12,856 nt of DNA from an uncultured Verrucomicrobiota bacterium (lineage in GTDB: Bacteria; Verrucomicrobiota; Verrucomicrobiia; Chthoniobacterales; SZAS-18): assembly GCA_937873255.1 (NCBI GenBank), contig CALMVM010000281.1, positions 1 to 12,856 of the forward strand. Reading direction: 5' to 3'. The translations under genes were made by a program, and so were the position numbers. Of this stretch, positions 1-12,856 are shown one piece after another. The stretch's first letter is position 1. Each line of letters starts with the position of its first letter. Below the pieces are notes generated by a model, which worked only from the letters and a program-made list of their open reading frames with translations, did not search any database and was not told where the DNA came from.

Positions 1-1
1 C

Positions 2-526
2 ATCAAGGGGTTCGGTGAGTTCGCCAATGGGTTTTTCCACCCATTTTTGACTCCTACCCATCTTCTCGTCCTTCTCAGCGTGGGACTCCTGCTCGGTCAG
101 CGTCCTCCGATACGCTTGCAGAATCCCGTGGGAACTTTTGCGGCGTTTGCCGCAGCCGGACTTGCGCTAACGCTTACCCACGTCGCAATCGGCGTTTATC
201 AGCCGGTTCTCATCGTCCTCGGTCTGTGCGCGGGGGGCTTGGTCGCGCTCGCGGCATCGCTGCCACCGTGGGTCAGTCTGGCAGCTTGTGCCGCTGTGGG
301 GTTCACGCTGGGCCTGGACTCGGGTGTTGATACGAATATTGATGGGAAGGCTGCGGCGACGACGCTGATCGCTACTTGGGTAAGCCTAATTGTCTTGGTA
401 ACCGACATCGCTTTTTACACTTCATTGGTACCACAATGTCAGTGGATTCGAACAGGCATCCGGGTGGTTGGGTCGTGGATCGTATCCATTGGGCTGCTCA
501 TGCTGGCGTTCTCGCTTAGACATTAA
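2..526 (+). CDS. HupE/UreJ-family membrane protein, 5'-truncated by window edge
   Basis: The frame is open to the left edge of the window, and the residues before the first possible internal start (TTG at 47) are clearly part of the protein: a stretch reading GFGEFANGFFHPFLTPTHLL matches the start of the HupE/UreJ_2 family, in which a conserved HP...H follows a short periplasmic segment. The true start is therefore upstream of base 1; 174 residues are visible. The rest is strongly hydrophobic, with about five to six membrane segments (around HLLVLLSVGLLLG, AAFAAAGLALTLTHVAIGVY, LIVLGLCAGGLVALAASL, VSLAACAAVGFTLG, TLIATWVSLIVLVTDIAFY and VVGSWIVSIGLLMLAFSL). Family members are inner-membrane proteins, some next to hydrogenase or urease genes and proposed to transport nickel or cobalt; many others are uncharacterised. 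No urease or hydrogenase gene is visible here, so the substrate is unknown. The gene ends with TAA and is followed by the mobile-element region. Confidence 0.75.
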   Translation: MKGFGEFANGFFHPFLTPTHLLVLLSVGLLLGQRPPIRLQNPVGTFAAFAAAGLALTLTHVAIGVYQPVLIVLGLCAGGLVALAASLPPWVSLAACAAVGFTLGLDSGVDTNIDGKAAATTLIATWVSLIVLVTDIAFYTSLVPQCQWIRTGIRVVGSWIVSIGLLMLAFSLRH

Positions 527-534
527 CCCGTTGG

Positions 535-559
535 AAAAATCACATTTTTAGTGACTAAA
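535..559. repeat. overlapping AT-rich palindromes after the HupE/UreJ gene
   Basis: Two perfect short inverted repeats overlap here: AAAAAT-CAC-ATTTTT (535-549) and TTTAGT-G-ACTAAA (547-559). They begin 8 bases after the TAA stop. They could form an AT-rich transcription terminator or a recombinase/repressor binding site at the element boundary. The sequence alone does not decide between these. Confidence 0.35.
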
Positions 560-631
560 GGGGACATTTGTGTTCTGAAGGCAAGCGATGCAGCATGAAA
601 AATATTTTCGGTGCTACAGACCGATGCTCTG

Positions 632-709
632 GTCCATTTGAGTCCATTGCTGTTCATTTACGTCCGAATATAACATGTTCGTTTTGAGCCGAATGTGCTG
701 TTCGTTCCA
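632..709 (+). repeat. ladder of GTYCRTT direct repeats upstream of the integrase
   Basis: Four units begin exactly 10 bp apart: GTCCATTTGA (632), GTCCATTGCT (642), GTTCATTTAC (652) and the degenerate GTCCGAATAT (662). Two more similar units follow: GTTCGTTTTG (677) and GTTCGTTCCA (700). In addition, TGTTCATTT...CCGAAT (651-669) and TGTTCGTTT...CCGAAT (676-694) form a longer ~24-bp direct repeat. Helically phased direct repeats between the element edge and the tyrosine recombinase gene are what arm-type sites or regulator sites would look like. The array lies in a 272-bp stretch in which I see no gene. Confidence 0.5.
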
Positions 710-798
710 CTTGCCAGCATCCAAAAAGGCTCGATGATGGAGGCCGCAACGATGAGCGAGGAGGACCAACTCCTTCCTCATTCGCTTGCGCCTCACTC

Positions 799-2280
799 AT
801 GGTCAACATCCTCGCTCCCGTCGTCACCACCGGCCCGACCTACGTCAAGGTGGCCAACTTTCCCGGCTTGTACCGCCACGCCCGCAGCGGTCGCTACTAC
901 GCCTGCAAAAAGCAGGGCGGCATCCGCAGGGAGCGTAGCCTCGGCACGTGCGACCGCAAGATCGCGGAACGACGGCTGAAGGAATGGACCGGCAACCTGG
1001 AGAAGGTGGATGCCGAGGTGGAGAAGACGACGCTGCATGAACTCATCGGCCGCTACCTTGTGGTCACCGGCAGCATGAGCGAGAGCAGTCGGGTCACCGA
1101 TCAGAGCATCATCAAGCGGTTCCTGACCTTCTGGTCTCACGGGAAAGATTATCAGGTGCGCTCTATCCGGCCGTCGATGCTGGACGAGTGGCTGACTCAC
1201 GAGGAACCCCGCCTGCGCAACGTGACGTACAATCGCTACGCCGGGTTCCTCAAGCAACTCTTCGACATCGCCGTCAAGGACCGCATCATCTCCGAGTCAC
1301 CCGCCAAGCTCCTGCGTCAGGGCTGGAAGAAGCCGCAGGCTGTCAAGCGGCAGGTGCCTTCCGTCGCTCAGTTCGAGGCCATCGTGGCCGACATCCGTGC
1401 TCAGCGCTTCAGCGACCATGCCGAGCACACGGCTGACTTCGTGGAGTTCCTTGGGCTAGCAGGACTGGGACAAGCGGAGGCATCCTCGCTGACGTGGGGC
1501 GACGTGGACTGGCAGCGCAACCAGATCAACGTGCGCCGCCACAAGACCGACACCCACTTCCAAGTGCCCATCTACGAGCATCTGCGTCCCTTGCTCGACA
1601 AGATGAACCGAGCACGGCGAGGAAAGCGCTCGCCAGCTTCTCTCGTCTTCAAGATCAAAGACGCCAAGAAGGCGCTCAAGGCGGCATGTGACAGGCTCAA
1701 ATTGCCGGCTTTCTGCCAGCGCAGCCTGCGCCAGCATCTCATCGGCAGACTATGGAAGGCGGGCGTGGACCGCAAGCTGATTGCACAATGGCAGGGCCAT
1801 CAGGACGGAGGCCAACTCATTCTTGACACATATACGCAGGTGTTCGGCAGCGACGACGAAGAGTATGTGCGCGGACAATTAGCGAAGATCGGCGGCGGAA
1901 CGACGCCAGCGGTCATGTTGTCCAGCGTAGAGGCATATCGCTCACCTTCTGGAGTCATGAAAGGGCCGCAAAAGAGTCATGCACCTGTTGATCCTCATTC
2001 TGCTCCTGCTGGTCGTTCTGCGCCTGCTGCGGTGAACCCGTACGCGAAGGGCGACAAGGTGCTCACCAAACTTGGTGGCAAGGGCGAGGACGTCGAGGCC
2101 GAGGTCGTTGCGGTGTGGAAGGACGAGGTGCAGGTCAAAACGCCGGATGGCGAGTTGCGCTGGAGGACGATCAGGACGGTGCAGCCGATCAAGGTAGTGG
2201 TCGCTCCCCAGGAGCCGACCAGTGAGGTGAAGCCGAGCGTACGCCGCAGGGGCAAGCCGATGCGCAAGAAGCGACGTTAG
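799..2280 (+). CDS. tyrosine recombinase/integrase with C-terminal SH3-like extension
   Basis: This is a site-specific DNA recombinase, probably the integrase of the element. Residues 23-65 form an N-terminal domain of the arm-binding kind (GLYRHARSGRYYA...SLGT), residues 75-180 the SAM-like core-binding domain, and residues 185-365 the catalytic domain. Visible catalytic-region residues are K249 (RRHKT), R311, H334 (WQGH) and Y345 (LDTYTQV). Two usual residues differ: the first arginine of the TGLR box is glycine (GLGQAE, G224), and the HxxR histidine is arginine (R308-S-L-R311). I recall the same changes in Verrucomicrobiota integrases, so they probably mark a subfamily rather than decay. 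Residues 370-493 are extra: a Pro/Ala/Ser linker, an SH3/Tudor-like patch (YAKGDKVLTKL...DGELRWRTIRTVQP) and a very basic tail. ATG 799 is the only start in frame nearby; the GAGGAGG at 758-764 is too far upstream to serve it. The gene ends with TAG. Confidence 0.88.
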   Translation: MVNILAPVVTTGPTYVKVANFPGLYRHARSGRYYACKKQGGIRRERSLGTCDRKIAERRLKEWTGNLEKVDAEVEKTTLHELIGRYLVVTGSMSESSRVTDQSIIKRFLTFWSHGKDYQVRSIRPSMLDEWLTHEEPRLRNVTYNRYAGFLKQLFDIAVKDRIISESPAKLLRQGWKKPQAVKRQVPSVAQFEAIVADIRAQRFSDHAEHTADFVEFLGLAGLGQAEASSLTWGDVDWQRNQINVRRHKTDTHFQVPIYEHLRPLLDKMNRARRGKRSPASLVFKIKDAKKALKAACDRLKLPAFCQRSLRQHLIGRLWKAGVDRKLIAQWQGHQDGGQLILDTYTQVFGSDDEEYVRGQLAKIGGGTTPAVMLSSVEAYRSPSGVMKGPQKSHAPVDPHSAPAGRSAPAAVNPYAKGDKVLTKLGGKGEDVEAEVVAVWKDEVQVKTPDGELRWRTIRTVQPIKVVVAPQEPTSEVKPSVRRRGKPMRKKRR

Positions 2281-2319
2281 TACTCCGTCGTCCACCTTCT
2301 AGCGAGTCCAGGGAGCCGC

Positions 2320-3324
2320 GTGCATGAGGCCCGCGCCCCTGCGCTCGGCATGACCATCCTTGACCCCGTCGCTGTCGCCAACCTCGCTGTCTTCCTCGTC
2401 CAGCTGCCCCGTGGCAGGACCACCTCACGAAGGCAATCCGCCGCCCCGCCACCCGTCGAGTTCATCTCGCTGGAAGCGGCCCGCGCCACCGGGGAGGTGG
2501 TGGTCTCAGAGACGGGCAGGACCGAGTGCGTGCGGTTGGAGAACCACTCTGAGCGTGACCTCTTTCTCCAAGCAGGCGAGATCCTACGTGGCGGCAATCA
2601 GGACCGGGCCGTGGCGGGTGATCTCATCATCCCCGCTCCCCGGCATGAGCCAGAGAGCTGCATGGTGCCCGTGTTCTGCGCAGAGCCGGAGCGTTCTACA
2701 CCGATGCGGGGCTGGACGCCGGACCTGTTCACGGTCTTCGACCAAACCTGCCCTAGCCGTAGGCTCAAGCGGGAGTTGCGGCTGGGCACTCAGGAGGATG
2801 TCTGGCGCGAGATCACCGCCCTGCGAGATGCGGTGTTCGACATCGTTAGCCACGGCGGTAGAAGGAACACGCCACGCTATTCCGTTTGGGAGCTGATCGA
2901 GACCCTGGAAGAGCTGAGCTGGCTGAAGCCTTACATTCACACGCTGCTGCCGCTGGCGGAGACCCATCTGGAGGCCACAGGGGTTGTGTTCGTCGTTGGC
3001 GGCAGATTCAACAGCGCGGAACTCTACGCCACCCCGGCTTTGTTCCGGCAGCTGTGGCCGAAAACCATCTATGCGATGGTGGTGGAAGCGCTGGTTGAAG
3101 AGAAGCTCAGCGGCGCATCGTGGCAGGGCACCTTGCCGACCAAGGGCGAGGTGACCGCGTGGCTGGCCGCAGGTCATCGGCGCGCGGTGGCAAGCCACAC
3201 CGACAAGATCAACCGGCGGGTGCATCGGCGCATCCGTTCCGGCGGCGGGGTGCTCTGCTTCGAGATGTTGGATCAAGAGCAGGACGGCTTCTGCATCCAT
3301 GAGACGATCCTGCCGAACGAGTGA
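2320..3324 (+). CDS. ARPP-1-like domain protein
   Basis: The protein has 334 residues from GTG 2320, which is preceded by AGGGAG (2310-2315) at short spacing. ATG 2350 is an alternative that would remove 10 residues without touching the conserved part. Residues 18-135 resemble the ARPP-1 family (ARG and Rhodanese-Phosphatase-superfamily-associated protein), with the key stretch ENHSERDLFLQAGEIL at 75-90, GGNQDRAVAGDLIIP at 91-105, and VPVFCAEPERS at 117-127 in the place of the family's 'pVsCvE.gRW'. The rest is mostly helical and contains VVFVVGGRFNSAELYATPAL. No signal peptide or membrane segment is visible. The biochemical role of ARPP-1 is not established to my knowledge. The gene starts 39 bp after the integrase on the same strand, so co-transcription is likely, and it may be cargo of the element. 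Repeat copy A begins just after its TGA. Confidence 0.62.
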   Translation: MHEARAPALGMTILDPVAVANLAVFLVQLPRGRTTSRRQSAAPPPVEFISLEAARATGEVVVSETGRTECVRLENHSERDLFLQAGEILRGGNQDRAVAGDLIIPAPRHEPESCMVPVFCAEPERSTPMRGWTPDLFTVFDQTCPSRRLKRELRLGTQEDVWREITALRDAVFDIVSHGGRRNTPRYSVWELIETLEELSWLKPYIHTLLPLAETHLEATGVVFVVGGRFNSAELYATPALFRQLWPKTIYAMVVEALVEEKLSGASWQGTLPTKGEVTAWLAAGHRRAVASHTDKINRRVHRRIRSGGGVLCFEMLDQEQDGFCIHETILPNE

Positions 3325-3326
3325 AG

Positions 3327-3522
3327 CGTCCGCCCTGTCCGGGGTGTCCGCCCATCTTGCGATGTTCTGCTGATTTTGCCTTAGACTCGGCAACGTACCG
3401 CGAGCGCCTCAGTCCAGTTGCACCGTCGATAGAACATCCCCGCATGCCTACGCCACCCCTCGTCGGTGATCGTAGCAAAAGAATGGGAGCATCATGGTCT
3501 CCCCAGACTGGGTGGGCGGACG
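3327..3522. repeat. ~196-bp dispersed repeat, copy A (MITE-like, imperfect terminal inverted repeats)
   Basis: The left end (3327-3346, CGTCCGCCCTGTCCGGGGTG) is identical to 7852-7871. The right end (3493-3515, containing GGTCTCCCCAGACTGGG) is identical over 23 bp to 8026-8048, with looser similarity just inside it (aaaagaatgggag against aagaaagggcg). The ends are also inverted repeats of each other: CGTCCGCCC (3327-3335) against GGGCGGACG (3514-3522), then TCCGGGGTGTCC against the complement of GGTCTCCCCAGA. The middle ~145 bp hardly aligns with copy B. The copy begins 2 bp after the TGA of the ARPP-1-like gene. It could be a miniature non-autonomous mobile element, a structured RNA or terminator, or a recombination site. 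Confidence 0.6.
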
Positions 3523-3649
3523 GAGGGAGCAGCGGTGGCAGTGGCAGCACTCGATGTGTTCGAGTACGCCCAACGAGTTCCCGTGTCACTAAACTTGCCG
3601 TCCGGCAAATACGTTGACCGCAGGAAACAGTAATTTTAGCATCTGCGTA
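3523..3649. other. non-coding stretch with two short palindromes
   Basis: With repeat A this makes about 325 bp without a convincing gene. It contains ACTCGA-tgtgt-TCGAGT (3549-3565) and TTGCCG-tc-CGGCAA (3595-3608). The second palindrome lies just before the TTG at 3614 and 42 bp before ATG 3650, where an operator for the downstream gene would be plausible. I see no promoter I would defend. Confidence 0.35.
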
Positions 3650-4387
3650 ATGCCCCGTGACCGTCCTCGTCCCCTCCCGAGCAAGATTCAAATTCTTGAC
3701 GGTGCATTCTGCCCGCAAATTGATACTGACCATTATTACGTCATTGCAGAACCTTGGAGCGCCGGGGTTCGTTCTCTGCTGCTCGTCAGCGAAACACTGG
3801 ATGGCAAGCGTGTTTTTAGAGACGTGTTGGCTGCAATGCCTGACCGCGCAACTGAGCGAAAAGACGTTCCGAAGTATCAACAAGCATTGTTCAAGTCGGC
3901 GCTGGCGGTAGTGATGCAGCACTACAAAGAGGCCGTCAGGGCAATGGACAAATTGGGGTTTGTCGAGAACTTACCCGCAGAGTTTATCGACGACCGCCTG
4001 TATGGCGATGCGCTCCCATCTTGGCTGCAGGAGTGGTTAGAAAGGCTGCGGGGAAAGGTTGCCAACTTGGAACCGCCGCCCAGTCTGCTGGCTGAGTTTG
4101 ACGATCTCCTCGGCCGCGGGTTGAGCGATAATCGCAGTGTCAAACGATGGAGCCCGTTGCACCTTCGGGATCGGGAGATCGATGCTAAGAACAACCTCGA
4201 TTGGCATATCTTCGAGTCGTGGGAGGAGTGGGATCAGGAGAAACTTGGCCGGAGGGAGCGGTCAACGAGGCTGTACGGCCGAGAGTTGGATTCGAAGGAT
4301 CTGGATAATTTTTACAGCAAATTAGATTATTTGAGCCTCAAAACTCCGAGAAATCATCGGCATAATAGATACTGGGTACAAATTTAA
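3650..4387 (+). CDS. hypothetical protein (orphan in mobile element)
   Basis: I do not recognise this protein. From ATG 3650 it has 245 residues; the frame is open to a TTG at 3614, which would add 12 residues, and neither start has a clear ribosome binding site. It looks soluble, with no signal peptide or membrane segment. The N-terminal third appears to be beta/alpha (SKIQILDG, DHYYVIAEPW, VRSLLLVSET), and the middle is predicted mostly helical (ALFKSALAVVMQHYKEAVRA, SWLQEWLERLRGKVANL). The C-terminal third is rich in Trp, Asp, Glu and Arg (NNLDWHIFESWEEWDQEKLG) and ends in a basic, aromatic tail (NHRHNRYWVQI). Base composition is lower in GC than in the neighbouring integrase and helicase, which suggests a separate origin. 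It lies between repeat A and the replication module, a usual place for accessory genes. The protein-like composition over 245 residues supports a real gene, but the start is uncertain. Confidence 0.55.
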   Translation: MPRDRPRPLPSKIQILDGAFCPQIDTDHYYVIAEPWSAGVRSLLLVSETLDGKRVFRDVLAAMPDRATERKDVPKYQQALFKSALAVVMQHYKEAVRAMDKLGFVENLPAEFIDDRLYGDALPSWLQEWLERLRGKVANLEPPPSLLAEFDDLLGRGLSDNRSVKRWSPLHLRDREIDAKNNLDWHIFESWEEWDQEKLGRRERSTRLYGRELDSKDLDNFYSKLDYLSLKTPRNHRHNRYWVQI

Positions 4388-4483
4388 AGGGTCCAAAATA
4401 CTCAAAGACAGCATTTTGCAAGACAGCGCCGCAAGAAAAAGGGGCAAAAATGATTTGGCGCCTCGTTCCGGCTTCGGAGATAT

Positions 4484-4720
4484 GTGCAACAATCGCATAC
4501 TCTCAATCAACCGCCGAAAACGCGGCGTGGCAGCACAGTCCTGTTTGGAACTGAAAAGATCGCTTACACGGCCCAAGAGGCCGCTCAAGCGCTTGGGATC
4601 AGCGTCCGGTCCCTGAAAAGGCTGGAAGAACGCGGGCTCATCAAGTCCTGCAAAGCCCTGCGAGTTCGCATCTACTCGCGGCGTGAGTTGGAGCGGTTTG
4701 TCGAGGAGAACTCGTTATGA
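4484..4720 (+). CDS. AlpA/excisionase-type helix-turn-helix protein
   Basis: This 78-residue DNA-binding protein probably acts as the excisionase or transcriptional regulator of the element. Residues 27-77 carry a MerR-like winged HTH of the HTH_17/excisionase type: AYTAQEAAQALGISVRSLKR (first helices and recognition helix), then RLEERGLIKSC and the wing, and RRELERFVEEN as the closing helix. GTG 4484 is chosen as start because GGAGA (4476-4480) sits at good spacing; an ATG at 4482 is in another frame. The first 25 residues are a disordered basic extension. Its stop overlaps the start of the primase gene (ATGA at 4717-4720), which implies translational coupling and an operon with the replication genes. 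In P4-like and related elements such proteins sit next to replication genes and govern excision. Confidence 0.75.
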   Translation: MQQSHTLNQPPKTRRGSTVLFGTEKIAYTAQEAAQALGISVRSLKRLEERGLIKSCKALRVRIYSRRELERFVEENSL

Positions 4721-5736
4721 TGCCTCCCCACCTGCGCGGCGGGGGCTTTCACGTCCCCCCCGAAGCCGTTCTGCCCACCCTCACAGCCTGCGGGGTCGAG
4801 GTCATCGACTCGACGCTGCTCCGTGCCCGGTGCCCGGCGGAAGACCTGCACACGACGCCCACCGGACCAGGGCACTGTGTCATCTTTCCTAACGACGGTA
4901 CTCCGCGCATTTTCTGCCACCACACGAGCTGTGCGGCACATGTCGATGCGGTCAACCGCCGACTCTGGAGCTGTAGCCGCCGGTTGGTCCGGTCCTCAAC
5001 GATGGCGGCTCACGTCGCGCGCCAGCGAAGCGCGCAACAGGCACACCAACATGAGCGTCAAGCGTTGCAGCAGCGTGCCGCCCGCATGCTGCCAACCGTG
5101 TTGGAAAAGTTCCACTGGCCGTTGGATGCGATTGAGGCCGATTCGCCCACGCCGATTATCCTCCCGGTTACCCAGCACCATCGCTATATCCTCGATCTAT
5201 TCGACGACAAGGACGTGGTGTGGACCGGCCAGCGGCTGAACCAAACAGGGCTGCCTTGGCACGACGTGCGTTTCCGCACAGTCAACCACTGGCTGGGTCG
5301 TATGCGCTGCCCCGGTGCATTCATTTGCCCGAGCACCTTCGTGCCTGGCATCTACAGCCGCGCGACTCACAACGTGGTCACCAGGAAATTCTTGGTGGTC
5401 GAGTCCGACAAGCTCGGCCGCGATGAAGTCGGCGCGGTGTTCCGGATGCTGCAAAAGCAGTTCGGGCTGCACCTGCGCGCGGTCGTGGACACGGGCGGTC
5501 GCTCGTTGCACGCCTGGTTCAACATGCCGCCCGCCGCCCTGTTGGAGGGCTTGGAGGCAACTCTCCTTGGGCTCGATTGTGACCCGGCCATGTTCCGCCC
5601 GGCTCAACCCTGCCGCTTGCCCGGCGTCGTGCGAGAGAAGACGGGGCGCTGTCAGGAACTCCTCTACCTTGATCTTGCACCAGTTCCCTCAAGCGCGGCG
5701 GGAGCAATGCTCCACGCGTTCAGCCAGCTCGTCTAA
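4717..5736 (+). CDS. primase-like protein: zinc ribbon plus AEP-type primase domain
   Basis: This is the probable primer-synthesising protein of the element. Residues 39-72 look like a zinc-binding ribbon (C39PAEDLH45 ... IFC67HHTSC72 with a nearby C54), similar to primase-associated ribbons. Residues 73-200 include a helical linker rich in Gln and Arg. Residues 224-310 resemble an archaeo-eukaryotic primase (AEP/PrimPol) fold: an acidic motif after a hydrophobic strand (KFLVVESD, E229/D231), the family's S-x-H motif (TGGRSLHAWF, S263/H265), and a late basic motif (CRLPGVVREK) before a final strand LLYLDL. The catalytic acids are not the classical DxD, so polymerase activity is inferred from fold similarity only. 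Start ATG 4717 overlaps the preceding HTH gene by four bases; the helicase gene starts 55 bp downstream. Together these form a primase-helicase pair that P4-like elements usually encode as one fused protein. Confidence 0.68.
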   Translation: MMPPHLRGGGFHVPPEAVLPTLTACGVEVIDSTLLRARCPAEDLHTTPTGPGHCVIFPNDGTPRIFCHHTSCAAHVDAVNRRLWSCSRRLVRSSTMAAHVARQRSAQQAHQHERQALQQRAARMLPTVLEKFHWPLDAIEADSPTPIILPVTQHHRYILDLFDDKDVVWTGQRLNQTGLPWHDVRFRTVNHWLGRMRCPGAFICPSTFVPGIYSRATHNVVTRKFLVVESDKLGRDEVGAVFRMLQKQFGLHLRAVVDTGGRSLHAWFNMPPAALLEGLEATLLGLDCDPAMFRPAQPCRLPGVVREKTGRCQELLYLDLAPVPSSAAGAMLHAFSQLV

Positions 5737-5791
5737 CCACCCACCGAAACGATCACGTCAGAAACCAACCAACAACAAACCAAACACCAGC

Positions 5792-7843
5792 ATGCAAGCC
5801 TTAGCAGTGAATTCAGAACCCACCATCAGCACCAATGTCGGCAGTCGCCGACGCCCATCCGCGAACCCAGCCGTGCGCATTGTGCTCACCCCGCTGTGCA
5901 AGCCATTCCCCAAGGGTAATCCGCTCCCACCCGAGTGCACGTTCGGCCTTACCACGCATCCAATGTTTACGGTGCTCCGACAAGACACTAAAGCTCCCCA
6001 TGTGGTTGTTCCCGTACTTGCTTCCAGAACGACGGTGACCGCTCCGCTTATTGTCGATGCTCAGTCGTCGCGCGAAACGTCGAGTGACAATGCCGCGGTC
6101 TCCCCGCAGGCACCCACCCCAGCAGTGGAGATCACGCTCACTCCGCAGACAGAGGTGGTGTGCGGTGCCAACAAGAAGCTGAAGTTCCACCTGTCTGGGC
6201 GCGACTTCAACTACTCCAACTTCGAGGAGGCTTTACTAGCGGCCGTCTTCCACAGCAAACCGCCCGAGGCGCTGCTAGAAATCCTCAATCGCATCACGAC
6301 CGAGGACTTCACAATCCTTGAGAACCGCATCATCGTCGAAGCGATGCTCCATATTTACATCAATGATGGCGAGGTGACCACGGCCAAGGTGCTGACCCAT
6401 CTGAAGTCTACCCTGGAGGATTATGGTCCGACGTGGATCGACTATGTCAATCGTTGCGCTTCGGTGGCCTACAATCCTGAGTACATCAAGGAGTACATCG
6501 GCAAGTTACAGGAAGCCTCCGCAATCCGCCGTGGTGACACCTTCACACGCTACCGCTACTCCGAGGCGTTCTGCGCCGGGCTGCTCAAGACTCATCTGCC
6601 GCAGATCAAGTGTGTGGGTGAAGAATGGTACGTGTACGACAAAGGCATCTGGGAAGTGACCGAGCGGGACATCTTCAGCATGATGGCGATGGAGAGTATG
6701 CACCCCGATCACCGTCAAGCCTCACGCGTCTGCGATCTTCTTGATCATGTTCAGCGCCTCTCGCAGGTGCCACGGAAGCTGTTCTTCGGAGCGTACAAGC
6801 GAGTTGAGGACCGCATTGTAATCAATGCCAACAACTGTGTGCTTGAGACTTCACCGGACGGCACGGTCACTCCGCGTGAGCATTCGCCCGACGACCACTT
6901 CACGCTCAAGTTGCCCGCTGACTTCGACCGAGCCGCTTGTTGCCCGGAGTTCGAAGCAACGCTGGAATACGCTTTGCCTGACGAGGCAGACCGCAACCTG
7001 TTGCAGGTGTTTGCCGGCTACATGCTCTATCCCGGTTGCGAGTTCCAGAAGGCGCTGGTGTGCTTCGGCGAAGGCGGCAACGGCAAGAGTACCCTCTTGG
7101 AGGGTATAGGACATGTGTTTGGAGAGTTTCTGTGTTCGGCCGCAGGTTTAGAAGACCTCTGCAAGCCTTCCGGTTACTCGCTCTCGATGATGCGGCATAC
7201 CATGCTCAACCTAGGGTCAGAGTTGAATGGGACCGAGATCGAAGAGTCGGCCAACTTCAAGAAACTGGTCTCTGGGGACACGATGCTCACGCGGCAGATT
7301 TACTGCAAGCCGAGTTTGATGACCGCGACGTGCAAACTCGTCTTCCTCACAAATCATATGCCTCGGTTTAGGGGTGGTTCCCACGCCGAGATGCGTCGCT
7401 TGCGCATCCTGCGCTTCGACCGCAAACCAACTGTAGAAGACCCGTTCCTCGGTGCCAAGATCAAGGCGGAACGCTCAGGCATCCTCAACTGGATGCTGTA
7501 CGGCTTGGCAAGCCTGCTCGATACTCGTGCCATTCCTCGCGGAGGCGATGGGGCGGCGATGGCACTGGAAGCTCTAAACCAGAGCGTTGACCCGGTGGGA
7601 GCGTTCGTAGCAGAACGTTGCAAGCTTGATCCGGCCGCGCGTGTGGCCAAGCAAACGTTGCTAGATCACTTCATCGCTTGGTGCGAAGAGAACAGCCATA
7701 GCTTCCGGGACGCGGAGAGCTTTTTCTTCAAGAAACTCTACGAACGCTATCCCGAGTTGAAGCCGAAAGGCACAGGTCCCAAGCCGACCATCGGCGGCAA
7801 GCGCTTGTACTGCCTCGACGGAATCGACGTACAGGAATCATGA
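5792..7843 (+). CDS. SF3 replicative helicase (D5/P4 family) with DnaB-N-like domain
   Basis: The protein is the likely replicative DNA helicase of the element. From ATG 5792 it has 683 residues; the frame is open further left to 5315, but that part overlaps the primase gene in another frame. Residues 1-130 are a low-complexity, Pro/Thr-rich extension with a small internal repeat (NPAVRIVLTP at 25-34 and TPAVEITLTP at 109-118). Residues 143-247 resemble the N-terminal domain of DnaB helicase (FEEALLAAVF, TTEDFTILENRIIVEAMLHI, NPEYIKEYIGKL). Residues 250-415 match D5_N. Residues 416-560 are the superfamily 3 ATPase: Walker A GEGGNGKST (426-434), a B motif around LNLGSE (to E477), sensor-1 LVFLTNHMPRF (N521) and the arginine-finger region RRLRILRF (535-542). 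A C-terminal winged-helix-like domain follows. Stop TGA is 8 bp before repeat copy B. Confidence 0.88.
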   Translation: MQALAVNSEPTISTNVGSRRRPSANPAVRIVLTPLCKPFPKGNPLPPECTFGLTTHPMFTVLRQDTKAPHVVVPVLASRTTVTAPLIVDAQSSRETSSDNAAVSPQAPTPAVEITLTPQTEVVCGANKKLKFHLSGRDFNYSNFEEALLAAVFHSKPPEALLEILNRITTEDFTILENRIIVEAMLHIYINDGEVTTAKVLTHLKSTLEDYGPTWIDYVNRCASVAYNPEYIKEYIGKLQEASAIRRGDTFTRYRYSEAFCAGLLKTHLPQIKCVGEEWYVYDKGIWEVTERDIFSMMAMESMHPDHRQASRVCDLLDHVQRLSQVPRKLFFGAYKRVEDRIVINANNCVLETSPDGTVTPREHSPDDHFTLKLPADFDRAACCPEFEATLEYALPDEADRNLLQVFAGYMLYPGCEFQKALVCFGEGGNGKSTLLEGIGHVFGEFLCSAAGLEDLCKPSGYSLSMMRHTMLNLGSELNGTEIEESANFKKLVSGDTMLTRQIYCKPSLMTATCKLVFLTNHMPRFRGGSHAEMRRLRILRFDRKPTVEDPFLGAKIKAERSGILNWMLYGLASLLDTRAIPRGGDGAAMALEALNQSVDPVGAFVAERCKLDPAARVAKQTLLDHFIAWCEENSHSFRDAESFFFKKLYERYPELKPKGTGPKPTIGGKRLYCLDGIDVQES

Positions 7844-7851
7844 TGTAACGC

Positions 7852-8054
7852 CGTCCGCCCTGTCCGGGGTGCCCGGCCTCTGCTTAATGTTCTCGGCTTC
7901 GGCTGGGGCCATGCGGGGGCCGGGCATCTTCGTTTACATAGCCCAATCGTGTCCAGCCTGTCCGGCCTGACCACCCTTCGGCGTATGTTTCCGGTATTGC
8001 CGTTCGGCCTCAAGAAAGGGCGAACCATGGTCTCCCCAGACTGGGTGGTCCGCA
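7852..8054. repeat. ~203-bp dispersed repeat, copy B
   Basis: This is the second copy of the element described at 3327-3522. The left 20 bp (7852-7871) and right 23 bp (8026-8048) are identical to copy A; the total length is nearly the same (ends 174 bp apart against 166), but the middle differs. Copy B also has an internal echo of its left end (GTCCAGCCTGTCCGG near 7959). The outer 9-bp inverted repeat seen in copy A is eroded here (CGTCCGCCC against TGGTCCGCA). It fills the space between the convergent helicase and nuclease genes, starting 8 bp after one stop and ending about 3 bp before the other, so a bidirectional terminator function is one possibility. Confidence 0.6.
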
Positions 8055-8057
8055 GCC

Positions 8058-9050
8058 TCAGTTTTCCTCTGCTGCCATTCTTTGCACCAGCCGGATGGAT
8101 TCCTCCGGTGTCAGCTCCCTTCGTTCGGCAGTATTGCGCATCGGGTGGCGGATGAACCCCGCGCGACTACGCTCTTCCTCGTCCGACTTGAACAGGCACT
8201 CCAACAGCCGCGCCGGTCCGTCCGGGCGTGAGATAAACTCGTGATTGCGGCCGTTGGGAGCGTGGTCCGTCCAGACCGCCACTGCCGCAACTTCAGGGTG
8301 CGAATCAAGGAACTGCGCGGCGTGGCGGCGAAGCAAGTTGTCGATTGGTGCGAGGACGGTCAGCGCGACCACGTTGTACGTGCCTTGCGGCGGCTCGATG
8401 GGAAACTTGCCATCCACGCCGTCGAAGAGGGAAGACAGGTCCTGCACATCGAAGCCGCCGTCCACTCTGGCCAGCCATGTGCGCGGTCGGTATTTGACCT
8501 CCAGATTGATTGTGATCCCTTCGGATCGAAAGCAGCAATCCACGTCCTTGGCGCTTCCCGGCACCAGCTTGGCGTTGAGTCGAACGGCGACCGGATTGCG
8601 CCAGCGACCTAGCCAGAGAAGCTCTTCGATGACGGCCACATGTTTACGCAGGTCGCGCAGTGCCTTGGCGTGAGTGCGCGGCCAGTTGGTGTGTGCCAGT
8701 ATCGTGTGGTCGATCTCTGACACGCGCGACAGTTTGAGCAGATCGGGACAATCAAGGCCGCTGCCTTCCCCGTGGAACATCTCGTGATCCTCGCCCTTCT
8801 TGCGATCATCCGGTCCCTTGCTCGCATTGAAGGGCGAGTCGGCCAGTCGGTACTTGGGCACGCGCATCGGCTCGCACCCATCGAACTCGATTGGCTGATA
8901 CGTGAGGCGCAGGTCGAAGCGCCACGCTTGCAGGTCGCCGTAGAGCCACTGAGCACGTTGAACGGCAACTGCGCGGGGCAAGACGGGATGGCTCGCACCG
9001 GGGTAGGCGCTTACCAATACTTGCTCAAGCTGTTCTAACGTGATGGTCAT
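8058..9050 (-). CDS. putative PD-(D/E)XK-superfamily nuclease
   Basis: This is a 330-residue soluble protein on the minus strand, start ATG at 9050 without a strong ribosome binding site. The core 140-190 has the order of a restriction-endonuclease-like fold: a helix with acidic residues (VIEELLWLG, E142/E143), a strand leading to KDVDC (D171), then a strand with the E-x-K pair (INLEVKYRPRTW, E184/K186). A later strand and helix (NVVALTVLAP and the helix after it) fit the rest of the fold. The N-terminal half is unassigned, and it includes a charged loop (KGPDDRKKGEDHE) and CPDL. Active nuclease function is inferred from the motif, not shown. It is convergent with the helicase gene across repeat B and divergent from the small gene at 9317, so it has its own promoter in 9051-9316. 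It could be a defence, anti-phage or element-processing nuclease. Confidence 0.55.
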   Translation of the reverse strand: MTITLEQLEQVLVSAYPGASHPVLPRAVAVQRAQWLYGDLQAWRFDLRLTYQPIEFDGCEPMRVPKYRLADSPFNASKGPDDRKKGEDHEMFHGEGSGLDCPDLLKLSRVSEIDHTILAHTNWPRTHAKALRDLRKHVAVIEELLWLGRWRNPVAVRLNAKLVPGSAKDVDCCFRSEGITINLEVKYRPRTWLARVDGGFDVQDLSSLFDGVDGKFPIEPPQGTYNVVALTVLAPIDNLLRRHAAQFLDSHPEVAAVAVWTDHAPNGRNHEFISRPDGPARLLECLFKSDEEERSRAGFIRHPMRNTAERRELTPEESIRLVQRMAAEEN

Positions 9051-9116
9051 AGACTGACTGTAAGGTAGCAGTAGTCATTCTTCAGTACAAATACGCGTGA
9101 AGACAGAAACTAATCT

Positions 9117-9133
9117 AGCATGCGTGTCATGCT
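9117..9133. promoter_or_regulatory. inverted repeat in divergent intergenic region
   Basis: AGCATG-cgtgt-CATGCT is a perfect 6-bp inverted repeat with a 5-bp spacer. It lies between the divergent nuclease gene (starting at 9050) and the small gene at 9317, where a shared operator would be placed. The 266-bp region also holds GTYCRTT-like units at 9162, 9181 and 9190. No -35/-10 pair stands out on either strand. Confidence 0.3.
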
Positions 9134-9316
9134 TTTGATCAAGCTGCGGTGGGTTATGTTAGTTCGTCTGACCAAGTTGCGTCCGTTCTGTCCATTCGCC
9201 TGCCTGACGATTGAGATAGATGCCTATGTTTATGTAACTGATCGTGCGGCAGTAGTCGGGTGTGCCCCGGTTCTATCAGGGCGTAGTCAGCAAACACAAA
9301 CACAACTAGCAACACA

Positions 9317-9703
9317 ATGGATACAACCCACATGAACCCACCCCAGGCAGACACCAGCATCTGGATCGGTGGCGCCGCGATGACTTGGCTGATCGAGCGT
9401 TTTAACGTCTGGTGCCAGGAATGGCTTGAGATGAAGTCGCCCGACAAGGGAGCCTACCAGATAACCCAGTTCCTCAAGGAGCTGATGGCCATCACCGACA
9501 TTCGTCTGCGCTTGGTGCGCGAGCACCCCGACCGCGGACCCGAGGCACTTGACCTCTCAACCCTCAACCTGATCCCTGTCGAAGGAGTGTGCCAGGACGA
9601 CATCATCGAAGCGTGGCTACGCTCCGGCGCGGCGTTGATCGCTGATGCGAACGATCTCATCGTGCGTCAGCCTCCCCACTTCGAAGTCGTGCGGGCGGAC
9701 TGA
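9317..9703 (+). CDS. small hypothetical protein
   Basis: The 128-residue product is not one I recognise. It looks like a real protein by composition: an aromatic, amphipathic N-terminal helix (AAMTWLIERFNVWCQEWLEM), a second helix (ITQFLKELMAITDIRLRLV), then a loop with TLNLIPVEGV and a helix IIEAWLRSGAALIADANDLI. It lacks a signal peptide and a clear membrane segment. The start could be ATG 9317 or ATG 9332; neither has an obvious ribosome binding site. It is divergent from the nuclease gene and convergent with the broken resolvase gene. Nothing in the sequence indicates a function. Confidence 0.5.
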   Translation: MDTTHMNPPQADTSIWIGGAAMTWLIERFNVWCQEWLEMKSPDKGAYQITQFLKELMAITDIRLRLVREHPDRGPEALDLSTLNLIPVEGVCQDDIIEAWLRSGAALIADANDLIVRQPPHFEVVRAD

Positions 9704-9782
9704 TCCGCTTCCGTGAGGGGTGCCAATGCCCGCTGCACTTGGCTCCCGTCGTACATGCGCGGCGGGGGCAGAGTTCCACGCC

Positions 9783-10400
9783 TCATTGCGGCTGCGTTGC
9801 CATCATCGTTCTCGCCTCCCTGACCAGCTCTCCTACGCTGGAGCGAGGCAGGCCAAGCTCCCGCATGATGACCTGATTGCAGCGATTGGCCCGCAAAAGT
9901 TCGATCACTCGTGGCAGGTGCTTGGCGTTCTTGCTGGGCCGACCCAGAGGCACCCCGCGCTGTTTGGCCGCCCGCAATCCGGCGTTGACGCGTTCGGTGA
10001 TGAGGTCGCGCTCAAACTGCGCCACTGCCCCGAGGATGTTGAGCTGAAGCTGAGCCACCGGATTGCTGTCGGTGGTGTCGATGCCCTGCGAAGGGATCAC
10101 CAGCGCTGTGCGATGGGACTGAAGCTCGCTGATGAGTTGCATGAGGTGAACGAGCGAGCGGGCAAGTCGGTCGAGCTTGAACGCCACGACCGTGGCAACC
10201 TTGCCCCGGCGAACCAGACCCATCAGCCGGTCCAGCCCCGTGCGGCTGGTGGAGCCGCCGGAGATGCAGTCGGTGTATTCCTGCACGTCCTCCCACCCTC
10301 GCCGTTGGCAGTAAGCACGTAGCTAGTCGAATTGGATGTGGGTGGTTTGACTAGCAGTGGACACGCGGGCGTAGATGGCGACGATCCCTTTCCGGCTCAT
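9783..10400 (-). pseudogene. serine resolvase/invertase with in-frame amber stop
   Basis: Read from ATG at 10400, the frame gives a normal small serine recombinase start (GIVAIYARVSTASQTTHIQF, catalytic S14, with Y10 and R12), then a TAG at codon 26 (10323-10325). It continues without any frame change as LRAYCQRRGWEDVQEYTDC. The amber stands where relatives usually have Glu (QLDELRAYC), so a single GAG to TAG change explains it. The downstream part is intact: FKLDRLARS with conserved arginines, QLQLNILGAVAQFERDLI, ERVNAGLRAAKQRG, GRPS and a C-terminal helix-turn-helix (IMRELGLPRSSVGELVREAR). Full length would be 205 residues, normal for resolvases. A re-start at GTG 10286 would lack the catalytic serine and should be inactive. 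The integrase gene here uses TAG as a genuine stop, which argues against TAG being read as sense. It is probably a remnant of a transposon or plasmid dimer-resolution system. Confidence 0.85.
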
Positions 10401-10430
10401 AGATGATTTTAGAAGCTGGGATTAGCTACG

Positions 10431-10515
10431 CCCGGCTGAGAATCATGGTGGCTCCTTTTCAGTGGACGAAGGGCTGGAACGAAGCAGGCTGAAATACTTC
10501 AGATTCTCAGCTGGG
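10431..10515. repeat. inverted repeat pair after the zinc-ribbon gene
   Basis: GCTGAGAATC (10435-10444) and GATTCTCAGC (10502-10511) are perfect 10-bp inverted repeats, and the match extends outward through CCC with one mismatch. They enclose 57 bp in the 141-bp gap between the resolvase remnant and the end of the zinc-ribbon gene. They could be the ends of a decayed small insertion, a recombination subsite for the resolvase, or part of a terminator structure for the minus-strand operon. Confidence 0.4.
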
Positions 10516-10541
10516 GTCCTTCTAACGTCAGGATGTCCAGC

Positions 10542-11516
10542 CTACAAACGGGGCAGCTTGGACGCCGGCACGAACACCGCAGCCAAGACAGCTCCCACGA
10601 TGCCGATCAGGACACAGATGCCGATTTCCTCTCGACGCACCAAGCCCAGCATGAACGTCACCGCAAAGCCGACCAACCCGACCACCATTCTGGCAAGAAC
10701 AACATTGTCGGCTCCAGCGGCTGTGTTCTGTGGCGTCAAAGGGGCGGCCATCTCAGCTCCGGGGAACTCTCGGCTAATCCGTTGGCGCAGTTCGTAGAGC
10801 GCCGGCAGCGTGTAGTGGAACCACGCCTTAGCCTCGTACGGGTAGCCCTCGGGCGAGTCGATGGCTCGGCCCGCCGCCGGCATGTGGTTCACCAGCGTTT
10901 CCATCAACGTCAGACCCTCACCGGTGTCGGCGGATGGTGCCAGTTCGTATGACACGCTCAGTAGCTCGAACGCCAGGGTGAGGAAGCGGTAGGCGAAGTC
11001 ACAGTGCACCCCGGCTACAAACGGCTGGCGGTGCGCTTCGTCGATGTAGCCGCTCGCAGAGTCACGCTCAACGTCCAAGTCGCTGCCAGCGCCCTCGGAC
11101 ACGCCGATGAGGGCAACCGCACGATCCTGGAAGCGCTGGGCCATGGCGGGCTTGAGTTCGGAAGCGGCGAATCCGTACCCCAAGGCTTTCACGGCGTAGC
11201 TGTTGACCTGATCGGGTCCGTCGGCGATGAGCGCCTTGCACATCCACACGGCACCGTTGGTCGGCTCGTGTTCCAGCACGCGGGTGAGTTGCGCGTCGGC
11301 CTCCTGGTAGTTGCCGCTGTCGATGAACTCCAGGGCCACTTGGAGCACGTCCCGTGCATGGGGCAAAGCAGGGGTGGCGACCGGGTTGCGGTGGGCCTGG
11401 ATGGCAGCTTGCACGTTCACCTCCTCACCGCAGATCATGCAGCGCGCGGTGGCACGGTCGGCAGGCACTTGGATGGTGGCACCACAGGCGGTGCAGCGGG
11501 CTGCCTTAAAGTTCAT
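10542..11516 (-). CDS. zinc-ribbon, TPR-like, two-TM membrane protein
   Basis: The 324-residue product starts at ATG 11516 with AGAGGA at good spacing upstream. It begins with a zinc ribbon (C8-T-A-C11 ... C26-M-I-C29). Residues 53-100 are a TPR-like helical pair (VLQVALEFIDSGNYQEADAQ, LTRVLEHEPTNGAVWMCKAL). The middle is predicted helical and may hold further weak repeats. The C-terminus has two membrane segments (about 270-289, LARMVVGLVGFAVTFMLGL, and 296-315, IGICVLIGIVGAVLAAVFV) separated by a short charged loop RREE. The ribbon and TPR part would thus lie on one side of the inner membrane, probably the cytoplasm. It is the second gene of an operon, 12 bp after the GYF_2/TonB gene. Function is unknown; ribbon-TPR-TM architectures usually act in protein-protein contacts. 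Domain calls are from visible motifs. Confidence 0.72.
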   Translation of the reverse strand: MNFKAARCTACGATIQVPADRATARCMICGEEVNVQAAIQAHRNPVATPALPHARDVLQVALEFIDSGNYQEADAQLTRVLEHEPTNGAVWMCKALIADGPDQVNSYAVKALGYGFAASELKPAMAQRFQDRAVALIGVSEGAGSDLDVERDSASGYIDEAHRQPFVAGVHCDFAYRFLTLAFELLSVSYELAPSADTGEGLTLMETLVNHMPAAGRAIDSPEGYPYEAKAWFHYTLPALYELRQRISREFPGAEMAAPLTPQNTAAGADNVVLARMVVGLVGFAVTFMLGLVRREEIGICVLIGIVGAVLAAVFVPASKLPRL

Positions 11517-11528
11517 CGGTTGATCCTC

Positions 11529-12362
11529 TCAGGGTAGGTTGTACACAAAGGTGAAGTTGTCCTTGGTACCCGGCTCGCCCGTCCAGTTGGCGCTGACGAA
11601 GTCCATGGTGCTCAGGTCAAGAACGCTCGCTCCTGTGGAGCGAGTCATCTCGGCGCTGCTTACACGTCCGTCTGCTCCGAAGACGACGTGACACACGCCC
11701 GTGCCGGTGGCGTGCGCCAGACGGGCTTCGTTGGGGTATGGCGGACGCGGCCGGGCGTACCGGGGAGCCACGCGCGCCGCTGCCGTTGGTGCAGGGGCAG
11801 GCGCGCGGTCCTTGATCTCGGTGTCAGGCACGACGTAGCCGTTGCGTCGCCACTCGATGTAGGCGTCCATCAGCCCGTTGAGGAACTGCTGGTACTCGGC
11901 GTTGGTGTACTTCTTGACGGTGGGGTTCTCGGCGCGACAGCCCTGGGCGAAGATCACCATGCCTCCGCTGCCGCTGTCCGTCGTGGCGCTTTTGAGCAGT
12001 TGCCGCCCCATGGCCCAGCCAAACTCGTGCGGGGTGCGACGACGCTGTGTTTGTTCCCGTGTAGCAGCCTCTTTGTCGTCGGTGAGGAGGCTGCCAACGA
12101 TTCCGGTGACGAGGGCGATCAGGAAGATCAGCGCAACCCATCCGCCGCAGCCCAACCGCCCGCGTGAGCGTGGGGCGACAGGCTGCGTGGAGATGGTGCC
12201 CGCGACCCCGGGGACGACGGCAAGCGGCACGAAGCGGTTGTCACCTCCATCGTAGGTGGCCATGTCGGTGGGTTTGAGGCTGCCGTTGGAGAGTTCATGC
12301 AGAACGTCCTCCAGCCTGTAGGGACCAAAGGTGCTCTGACCGCGATGAATGAAAATGCGCAT
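11529..12362 (-). CDS. GYF_2 domain, single-TM, TonB C-terminal domain protein
   Basis: The 277-residue protein combines three recognisable parts. Residues 1-50 are a GYF_2 domain (IFIHRGQSTFGPYRLEDVLH, then GSLKPTDMATYDGGDNRFVPL), a probable peptide-binding module common in Verrucomicrobiota and relatives. Residues 74-93 form one membrane helix (WVALIFLIALVTGIVGSLL). Residues 110-183 are an uncharacterised domain with two cysteines-poor helices (AEYQQFLNGLMDAYIEWRRN). A Pro/Ala linker (188-206) leads to a TonB C-terminal-like domain (PRPPYPNEARLAHATGTGVC, FGADGRVSSAEMTRSTGASV). The topology is then GYF_2 in the cytoplasm and TonB domain in the periplasm. The TonB-like part lacks an evident ExbB/ExbD partner nearby, so energy transduction is not assumed. 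It is the first gene of a two-gene operon and divergent from the XRE regulator. No ribosome binding site is evident before ATG 12362. Confidence 0.78.
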   Translation of the reverse strand: MRIFIHRGQSTFGPYRLEDVLHELSNGSLKPTDMATYDGGDNRFVPLAVVPGVAGTISTQPVAPRSRGRLGCGGWVALIFLIALVTGIVGSLLTDDKEAATREQTQRRRTPHEFGWAMGRQLLKSATTDSGSGGMVIFAQGCRAENPTVKKYTNAEYQQFLNGLMDAYIEWRRNGYVVPDTEIKDRAPAPAPTAAARVAPRYARPRPPYPNEARLAHATGTGVCHVVFGADGRVSSAEMTRSTGASVLDLSTMDFVSANWTGEPGTKDNFTFVYNLP

Positions 12363-12431
12363 CGCGCTAGGAGGTGAATGAGCCCACAGACAGTCCGCAG
12401 AGGGCTGTAAACGTGCCTGCTCGCACCGTTT

Positions 12432-12463
12432 ATGGTCAAGTGCTTTTTCTCACATGTGACCAT
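12432..12463. promoter_or_regulatory. operator-like nested palindromes upstream of XRE gene
   Basis: TCACATGTGA (12450-12459) is a perfect 10-bp palindrome. It overlaps the right arm of a wider perfect inverted repeat, ATGGTCA (12432-12438) and TGACCAT (12457-12463), separated by 18 bp. The site ends 5 bp before the XRE gene and lies in the divergent space with the GYF_2/TonB operon. Small XRE repressors often bind palindromes in their own promoter region, so autoregulation, and perhaps control of the divergent operon, is a reasonable inference. On the minus strand a TTGACC in this site could serve as a -35 element. Confidence 0.45.
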
Positions 12464-12468
12464 CCTGC

Positions 12469-12696
12469 ATGCCCATCGTTTGCCGCGTGGCGCAGCGTTT
12501 CAGAGGCCAACTCGGCAAGTTCCTTCGCCAGCGGCGAGGCGAGATGACCTACGCTCAGTTCGCCCGCAAGATCGGCATCTCCATCTCGTCACTCCAGCGC
12601 ATGGAGAACGGCATCCAGAACGTGACGCTGGACACTCTGGAGACGGTAGCCCGGAGGCTGAAAGCGTCGCTCAAGGACATCTTTGGCGACGTGTGA
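12469..12696 (+). CDS. XRE/Cro-CI family transcriptional regulator
   Basis: This 75-residue protein is little more than a Cro/CI helix-turn-helix domain, residues 12-73: LGKFLRQRRGEMTYAQFARK, then the recognition helix IGISISSLQRMENGIQN, and the closing helix pair TLDTLETVARRLKASLKDIF. It is expected to act as a dimer on palindromic DNA. ATG 12469 is the first start in frame with no clear ribosome binding site; an internal ATG at 12544 would cut into the domain. It is transcribed divergently from the GYF_2/TonB operon with a palindromic site between them. It has no toxin partner next to it, so a stand-alone repressor is the simplest reading. Confidence 0.8.
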   Translation: MPIVCRVAQRFRGQLGKFLRQRRGEMTYAQFARKIGISISSLQRMENGIQNVTLDTLETVARRLKASLKDIFGDV

Positions 12697-12734
12697 TCGA
12701 CCGCCAGACACGACTTCTGTTCGCTCGCCAACTG

Positions 12735-12757
12735 TGATTTAGAAGAATTCTAAATCA
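12735..12757. terminator. perfect AT-rich hairpin after XRE gene
   Basis: TGATTTAGAA-GAA-TTCTAAATCA is a perfect 10-bp inverted repeat with a 3-base spacer, 38 bp after the XRE stop. Neither strand has the GC-rich stem and T run of a typical intrinsic terminator, so it may instead be an operator or a protein-binding site. The remaining 99 bp to the window edge show no gene I can support. Confidence 0.35.
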
Positions 12758-12856
12758 GTCCACGGCGCTGGTGTGACGCTCGGCGTGTTGGCAGCCCTGC
12801 TTTCTCGTCTGCTAAAACTCCACGTCCCGGCAGCGTTGATCCAGCTGATGAGCGAT

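Follow-up and report, generated by a model that had tools for sequence, protein, structure and literature searches.

What are the modules that stand on either side of a replication module in the DNA of an uncultured Verrucomicrobiota bacterium, and why are their ends nearly fixed while the sequence between the ends is free? The window analysed here is a stretch of 12,856 nt (contig CALMVM010000281.1, positions 1-12,856, on a scaffold of 22,328 bases in total), and a model's earlier reading of it, the original prediction, described two such regions, A and B. There are three copies of the module, and it is real and constrained. Most likely, though with a little less than even confidence, the modules are binding sites for the own replication initiator of the P4/SaPI-like integrative element that carries them (SaPI, Staphylococcus aureus pathogenicity island), like P4 ori/crr or the origin of a SaPI or phage-inducible chromosomal island (PICI). 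If confirmed, they would be a new variant of these known origin types.

Copy A (3330-3515) and copy B (7855-8048) lie on the plus strand, about 4.5 kb apart. They share an identical left block of 20 bp (3327-3346 and 7852-7871) and an identical right block of 23 bp (3493-3515 and 8026-8048), and the starts of the two blocks are 166 bp apart in A and 174 bp apart in B. No exact direct repeat in the window is longer than the 23-bp block; the longest in 200 dinucleotide shuffles measured 12-19 bp. A whole-genome search added a third, copy C, which lies beyond the window on the minus strand of this scaffold (contig 16517-16676). A run of N at 12857-12867 separates C from the window, so that it is the scaffolding which links it to A and B. 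Across the three copies, 19 of the 21 bases of the left end and all 21 of the right end are identical. The left end agrees with the inverted right end at 15, 15 and 16 of 21 positions in A, B and C, which makes the ends imperfect inverted repeats in each copy, and the asymmetry between left and right is the same in all three copies of this one assembly. Recomputation bore out the shared ends, spacing and diverged middle that the original prediction had described. Both of its copies are real, but its count missed C; its extents (3327-3522 and 7852-8054) start correctly but run too far, since the shared sequence stops at 3515 and 8048; and the inverted repeats it saw in A hold there but are not specific to A. 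A and B do begin shortly after stop codons, as it said (TGA ending at 3324 and at 7843). Directly before C, no open reading frame (ORF) of at least 80 aa ends.

Between their ends, A, B and C have middles of 144, 152 and 118 bp, which align no better than shuffled sequence: out of 500 shuffles, the real score was equalled or exceeded by 93 for A-B, 111 for A-C and 297 for B-C. Their GC content is 0.60, 0.64 and 0.61 respectively, against 0.592 for the contig, and the lowest GC of any 30 bp within them is 0.40-0.47. With ends constrained and middle free, this is not a plain segmental duplication, in agreement with the original prediction. An ATGTT box lies 10-11 nt inside the left end, its offset constant to within 1 nt in A, B and C; in a post hoc test, any shared 5-mer at such an offset arose in 4 of 3000 shuffles. 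The motif GTCC-N3-CTGTCC, derived from the left ends, occurs five times in the 22,328-base scaffold: once in the left end of each of A and B, once more within B, at 9181 (+) and at 15890 (-). It occurs nine times in 2,317,828 bases of other loci, which are partly redundant. The lone sites at window 9181 and contig 15890 have no right end visible close by. It was also considered whether the right end, which reads ATG GTC TCC in A and B, encodes a leader peptide; this was rejected, as its 21 bases show no synonymous change and the ATG is missing from C.

How widely is the module distributed? The host genome (5.02 Mb in 642 contigs, with a completeness of about 90%) was searched along with overlapping sets of genomes from its order (213), class (384) and phylum (387). 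Neither end matches again in the host genome at up to 3 mismatches beyond A, B and C. A covariance model of the three copies scored them at 153-192 bits among the order genomes, where the runner-up reached 19.4 bits; among the class genomes the runner-up reached 21.9 bits. At up to 2 mismatches, the right end was found among the order genomes in the host and in four single 2-mismatch matches; these were taken as chance, because only one (L043) had a left-type partner, with 5 mismatches and non-complementary by eye. An 18-mer searched at 1 mismatch through the phylum genomes returned the host copies and one single match in another genome (G219). Left-end matches in two genomes (G001 and G002) were set aside as coincidence, since they lie inside the coding region just before tsf. 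An exact 19-mer search of GTDB contigs gave 0 matches, viral contigs gave 1 and 3 single-end matches and none with both ends, and blastn against phage and plasmid records found no copy. For the 4717-5736 protein, the relatives' loci scanned were 6 from GTDB and 50 from viruses; for rep, they were 80 of 186 viral loci. In a paired-end scan of these, the module's own copies alone appeared at 0-1 mismatch, and left-right pairs at 4-5 mismatches arise by chance. Repeats near the gene in one relative (L049) were rejected as part of another gene's coding end.

These searches bear first on a transposable origin. The modules could be relics of a miniature inverted-repeat transposable element (MITE) or of a pair of insertion-sequence ends, with terminal inverted repeats of about 21 bp, inserted three times into the mobile element: their borders are sharp, all three copies have imperfect inverted ends, and they occupy intergenic sites in both orientations. 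However, the three copies sit on one scaffold, no target-site duplication of at least 4 bp was found within 6 bp of the ends, and the middles are unrelated despite the near-identical ends. The lack of dispersed copies, of such duplications and of a common interior argues for DNA-binding sites rather than a transposon, and we consider the transposon explanation doubtful.

Three paralogues of a structured non-coding RNA whose closing stem is conserved would explain why the ends pair at 17 positions with regular single mismatches, and why the whole-element fold is more stable than expected on the plus strand (z of -2.6, -3.7 and -4.9), where alone two G-U pairs form. The minus strand is nearly as stable, though (z of -1.8, -3.0 and -3.9), and the middles alone give z of only -0.5 to -1.9 (plus) and -0.3 to -0.9 (minus). 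Most of the fold excess comes from the end stem, and it is found on both strands, which points to DNA-binding sites rather than RNA. All 17 of the 17 stem pairs are invariant, so there is no covariation, a weak point with just three sequences; in the consensus fold the covariation term is unfavourable (+1.11), and 3 of 33 pairs differ at both bases. Nothing in the window or in the locus around C (L031) matched Rfam above the gathering score; the window's three matches at E <= 5 were all below that score and outside the modules. The conserved identity of the end bases, together with the unchanged stem pairs, argues for DNA-binding sites over both RNA and transposon, and we regard the RNA explanation as decidedly unlikely. 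Under the refuting condition that the original prediction itself set, an absence of both additional copies and compensatory changes, its MITE-like element and its selected structured RNA both fall.

What would bind these sites? From the left, the gene order is integrase, ARPP-1 gene, A, unassigned gene, helix-turn-helix (HTH) gene, conserved protein, rep, B and a convergent gene. Because of the genes between A and B, this interval is taken as the replication module of the element, and the original prediction was right that the two copies bracket it. The rep product scores 134.4 bits against TIGR01613 (cut-off 108.7), which places it among the P4-family primase-helicases, and its closest relatives are P0002, with 70% identity, and P0003, with 67%. 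It also matches DnaB-type and poxvirus/African swine fever virus helicase folds, matches that were counted solely as support for a helicase fold. In its structure model, residues 1-138 and 451-513 have a predicted local distance difference test (pLDDT) score below 50. Two things point to replication: the element carries a third copy, and there is a site beside the initiator gene. In the mechanism we propose, the inverted end blocks are putative loading sites of Rep (5792-7843), and loaded Rep would melt or extrude the stretch between the ends, where replication of the excised element would begin. B would be the site close to rep, comparable to crr of P4 or to the ori of a SaPI; A would be its partner, like P4 ori; and C may be an additional site, as in other multi-site replicons.

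Known origin systems resemble this arrangement in part. In P4 (X51522), whose initiator belongs to this family too, the replication module is bracketed by ori and crr, cis regions of 100-300 bp, one of them just past the initiator stop; the two share short repeats in both orientations at steps of 9-10 bp. That layout is found here as well: A and B share repeats and bracket the module, and B adjoins the initiator stop. P4, however, has many 8-bp iterons in AT-rich DNA, whereas the element studied here has three modules with GC-rich, hairpin-forming 21-bp ends. The P4 iteron GGTGAACA is absent from A, B and C and occurs twice elsewhere on the contig. The SaPI/PICI origin lies directly 3' of rep, as does B but not A or C, and consists of two repeat sets around a variable stretch; Rep here is homologous to the SaPI5 protein. 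It differs in the AT-rich stretch between its iterons, which is not seen here, and in the extra copies elsewhere on this element; as the middles are GC-rich, the modules fall outside the PICI origin definition and are not classed there. In pRN1, a gene for an SF3 (superfamily 3) helicase replication protein is likewise followed by a stem-loop with free sequence, but there the flanks are conserved yet dispensable and the entire stem-loop sequence varies, while here the stem ends are conserved.

Several observations weigh against binding by the element's initiator. The middles are not AT-rich. At E <= 0.01 the host's Rep does not match the Pox_D5 winged helix, whereas 11 of 16 relatives do. In the closest relative whose DNA was read (36% identity), the next ORF begins 3 bp after rep, leaving no room for a module. 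In none of 79 distant viral D5-helicase loci did the 300 bp that follow rep match another part of the locus better than every control, so no general tendency to repeat the post-rep sequence emerged; the host contig and P4 fail this rank test too, as the controls include their partner copies, and by score the host contig ranks highest (50.0 bits) and P4 second (37.4), with the viral D5 locus L102 at 36.5. Neither copy C nor the position of A after the ARPP-1 gene is predicted by initiator binding, and binding of the SCCmec (staphylococcal cassette chromosome mec) initiator is reported to be unaffected by removal of inverted repeats and affected by removal of direct repeats. With three positions among about twenty genes, a copy could have come to follow rep by chance, and for this reason confidence is kept just short of even. 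As a separate observation, the post-rep sequence of L102 recurs within that locus (3477-3513 and 640-676, 37 nt at 81%, 36.5 bits).

A more specific model is a multi-site hairpin-type origin, in which the initiator would read the fixed inverted pair of 21-bp ends with any 120-150 bp between them and the three modules would cooperate at the replication genes and in their vicinity. We think this unlikely; if true, it would unite the P4/SaPI iteron origins with the pRN1 stem-loop origins. If the modules are initiator sites, they would mark the origins of a replicating mobile element in a lineage in which elements of the satellite type seem to have received little study (among the papers listed in one literature search on such elements, none mentioned Verrucomicrobia). 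They would also provide a testable connection between iteron and stem-loop origins within the helicase group to which P4, SaPI and pRN1 belong.

Inverted ends that enclose a free middle, on a scaffold with two recombinase genes, could also mark a recombinase site: either an attC-like folded site or a segment that the integrase or the serine recombinase (9783-10286) inverts. In the one assembly available, the left/right asymmetry is constant across the three copies and no inverted form was seen. B sits between two convergent gene ends, so its inversion would switch no gene, and an in-frame stop interrupts the serine recombinase frame. As for attC, the integrase scores 22.4 bits on the XerA/integron model (cut-off 220), far short of the integron and Xer thresholds, and integron core boxes were not seen in the ends. 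We consider a recombination site improbable. Still less probable is that the modules are operators of a regulator such as the LexA-like repressor encoded about 460 bp from C (L031:5113-5736, HTH plus S24 peptidase). C does lie in the intergenic region before that gene, but the same convergent position of B speaks against an operator, as do the large size of the sites and their pairing at 118-152 bp.

Table 1. Positions of the module ends, inner motifs and neighbouring genes in the window.
Feature	Position	Strand	Remark
Tyrosine integrase	799..2280	+	
ARPP-1 domain gene	2350..3324	+	Ends just before copy A
GTCC steps in copy A left end, 9-bp spacing	3328, 3337, 3346	+	Three steps
Copy A left end (21 bp)	3330..3350	+	Match to B begins 3 bp earlier, at 3327
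Copy A ATGTTYT box	3362..3368	+	11 nt inside left end
Copy A right end	3495..3515	+	21/21 identical across A, B, C
Gene of no assigned family, first after copy A	3614..4387	+	Start uncertain, ATG at 3650 possible
Excisionase-like HTH gene	4484..4720	+	phrog_66, E 3e-6; below NCBIfam cut-off
Conserved protein immediately upstream of rep	4717..5736	+	No family hit; labelled primase-like by position only
rep	5792..7843	+	P4-family primase C-terminal / SF3-type helicase, homologous to SaPI5 Rep
Copy B left end	7855..7875	+	11 bp after rep stop; shared CGT from 7852, 8 bp after stop
Copy B ATGTTYT box	7887..7893	+	Offset compared across A, B, C
Second, weaker left-type end inside B, GTCCAGCCTGTCCGGCCTGACC	7951..7989	+	ATGTT at 7985, same offset
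Copy B right end	8028..8048	+	10 bp before stop of convergent gene 8058-9050

Some further features of the surroundings were recorded. The invertase-like serine recombinase (phrog_125) covers window 9783-10400 on the minus strand, with its in-frame stop near the N-terminus. C lies between the LexA-like repressor gene and a gene fragment (L031:3918-4577, minus strand) that matches just positions 3-109 of 281 of PF18723, the 5-hmdU (5-hydroxymethyldeoxyuridine) DNA kinase helical domain. Adjoining genes at L031:5820-9888, for DUF5131, TcmP and an N6-adenine methyltransferase-like protein, perhaps form a DNA-modification or defence cluster. Among the 56 loci that carry a protein of the 4717 type, just 3 have a rep match. 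In one relative (L218:1603-1740), two topoisomerase-like genes flank a pair of 39-nt arms that are 92% complementary.
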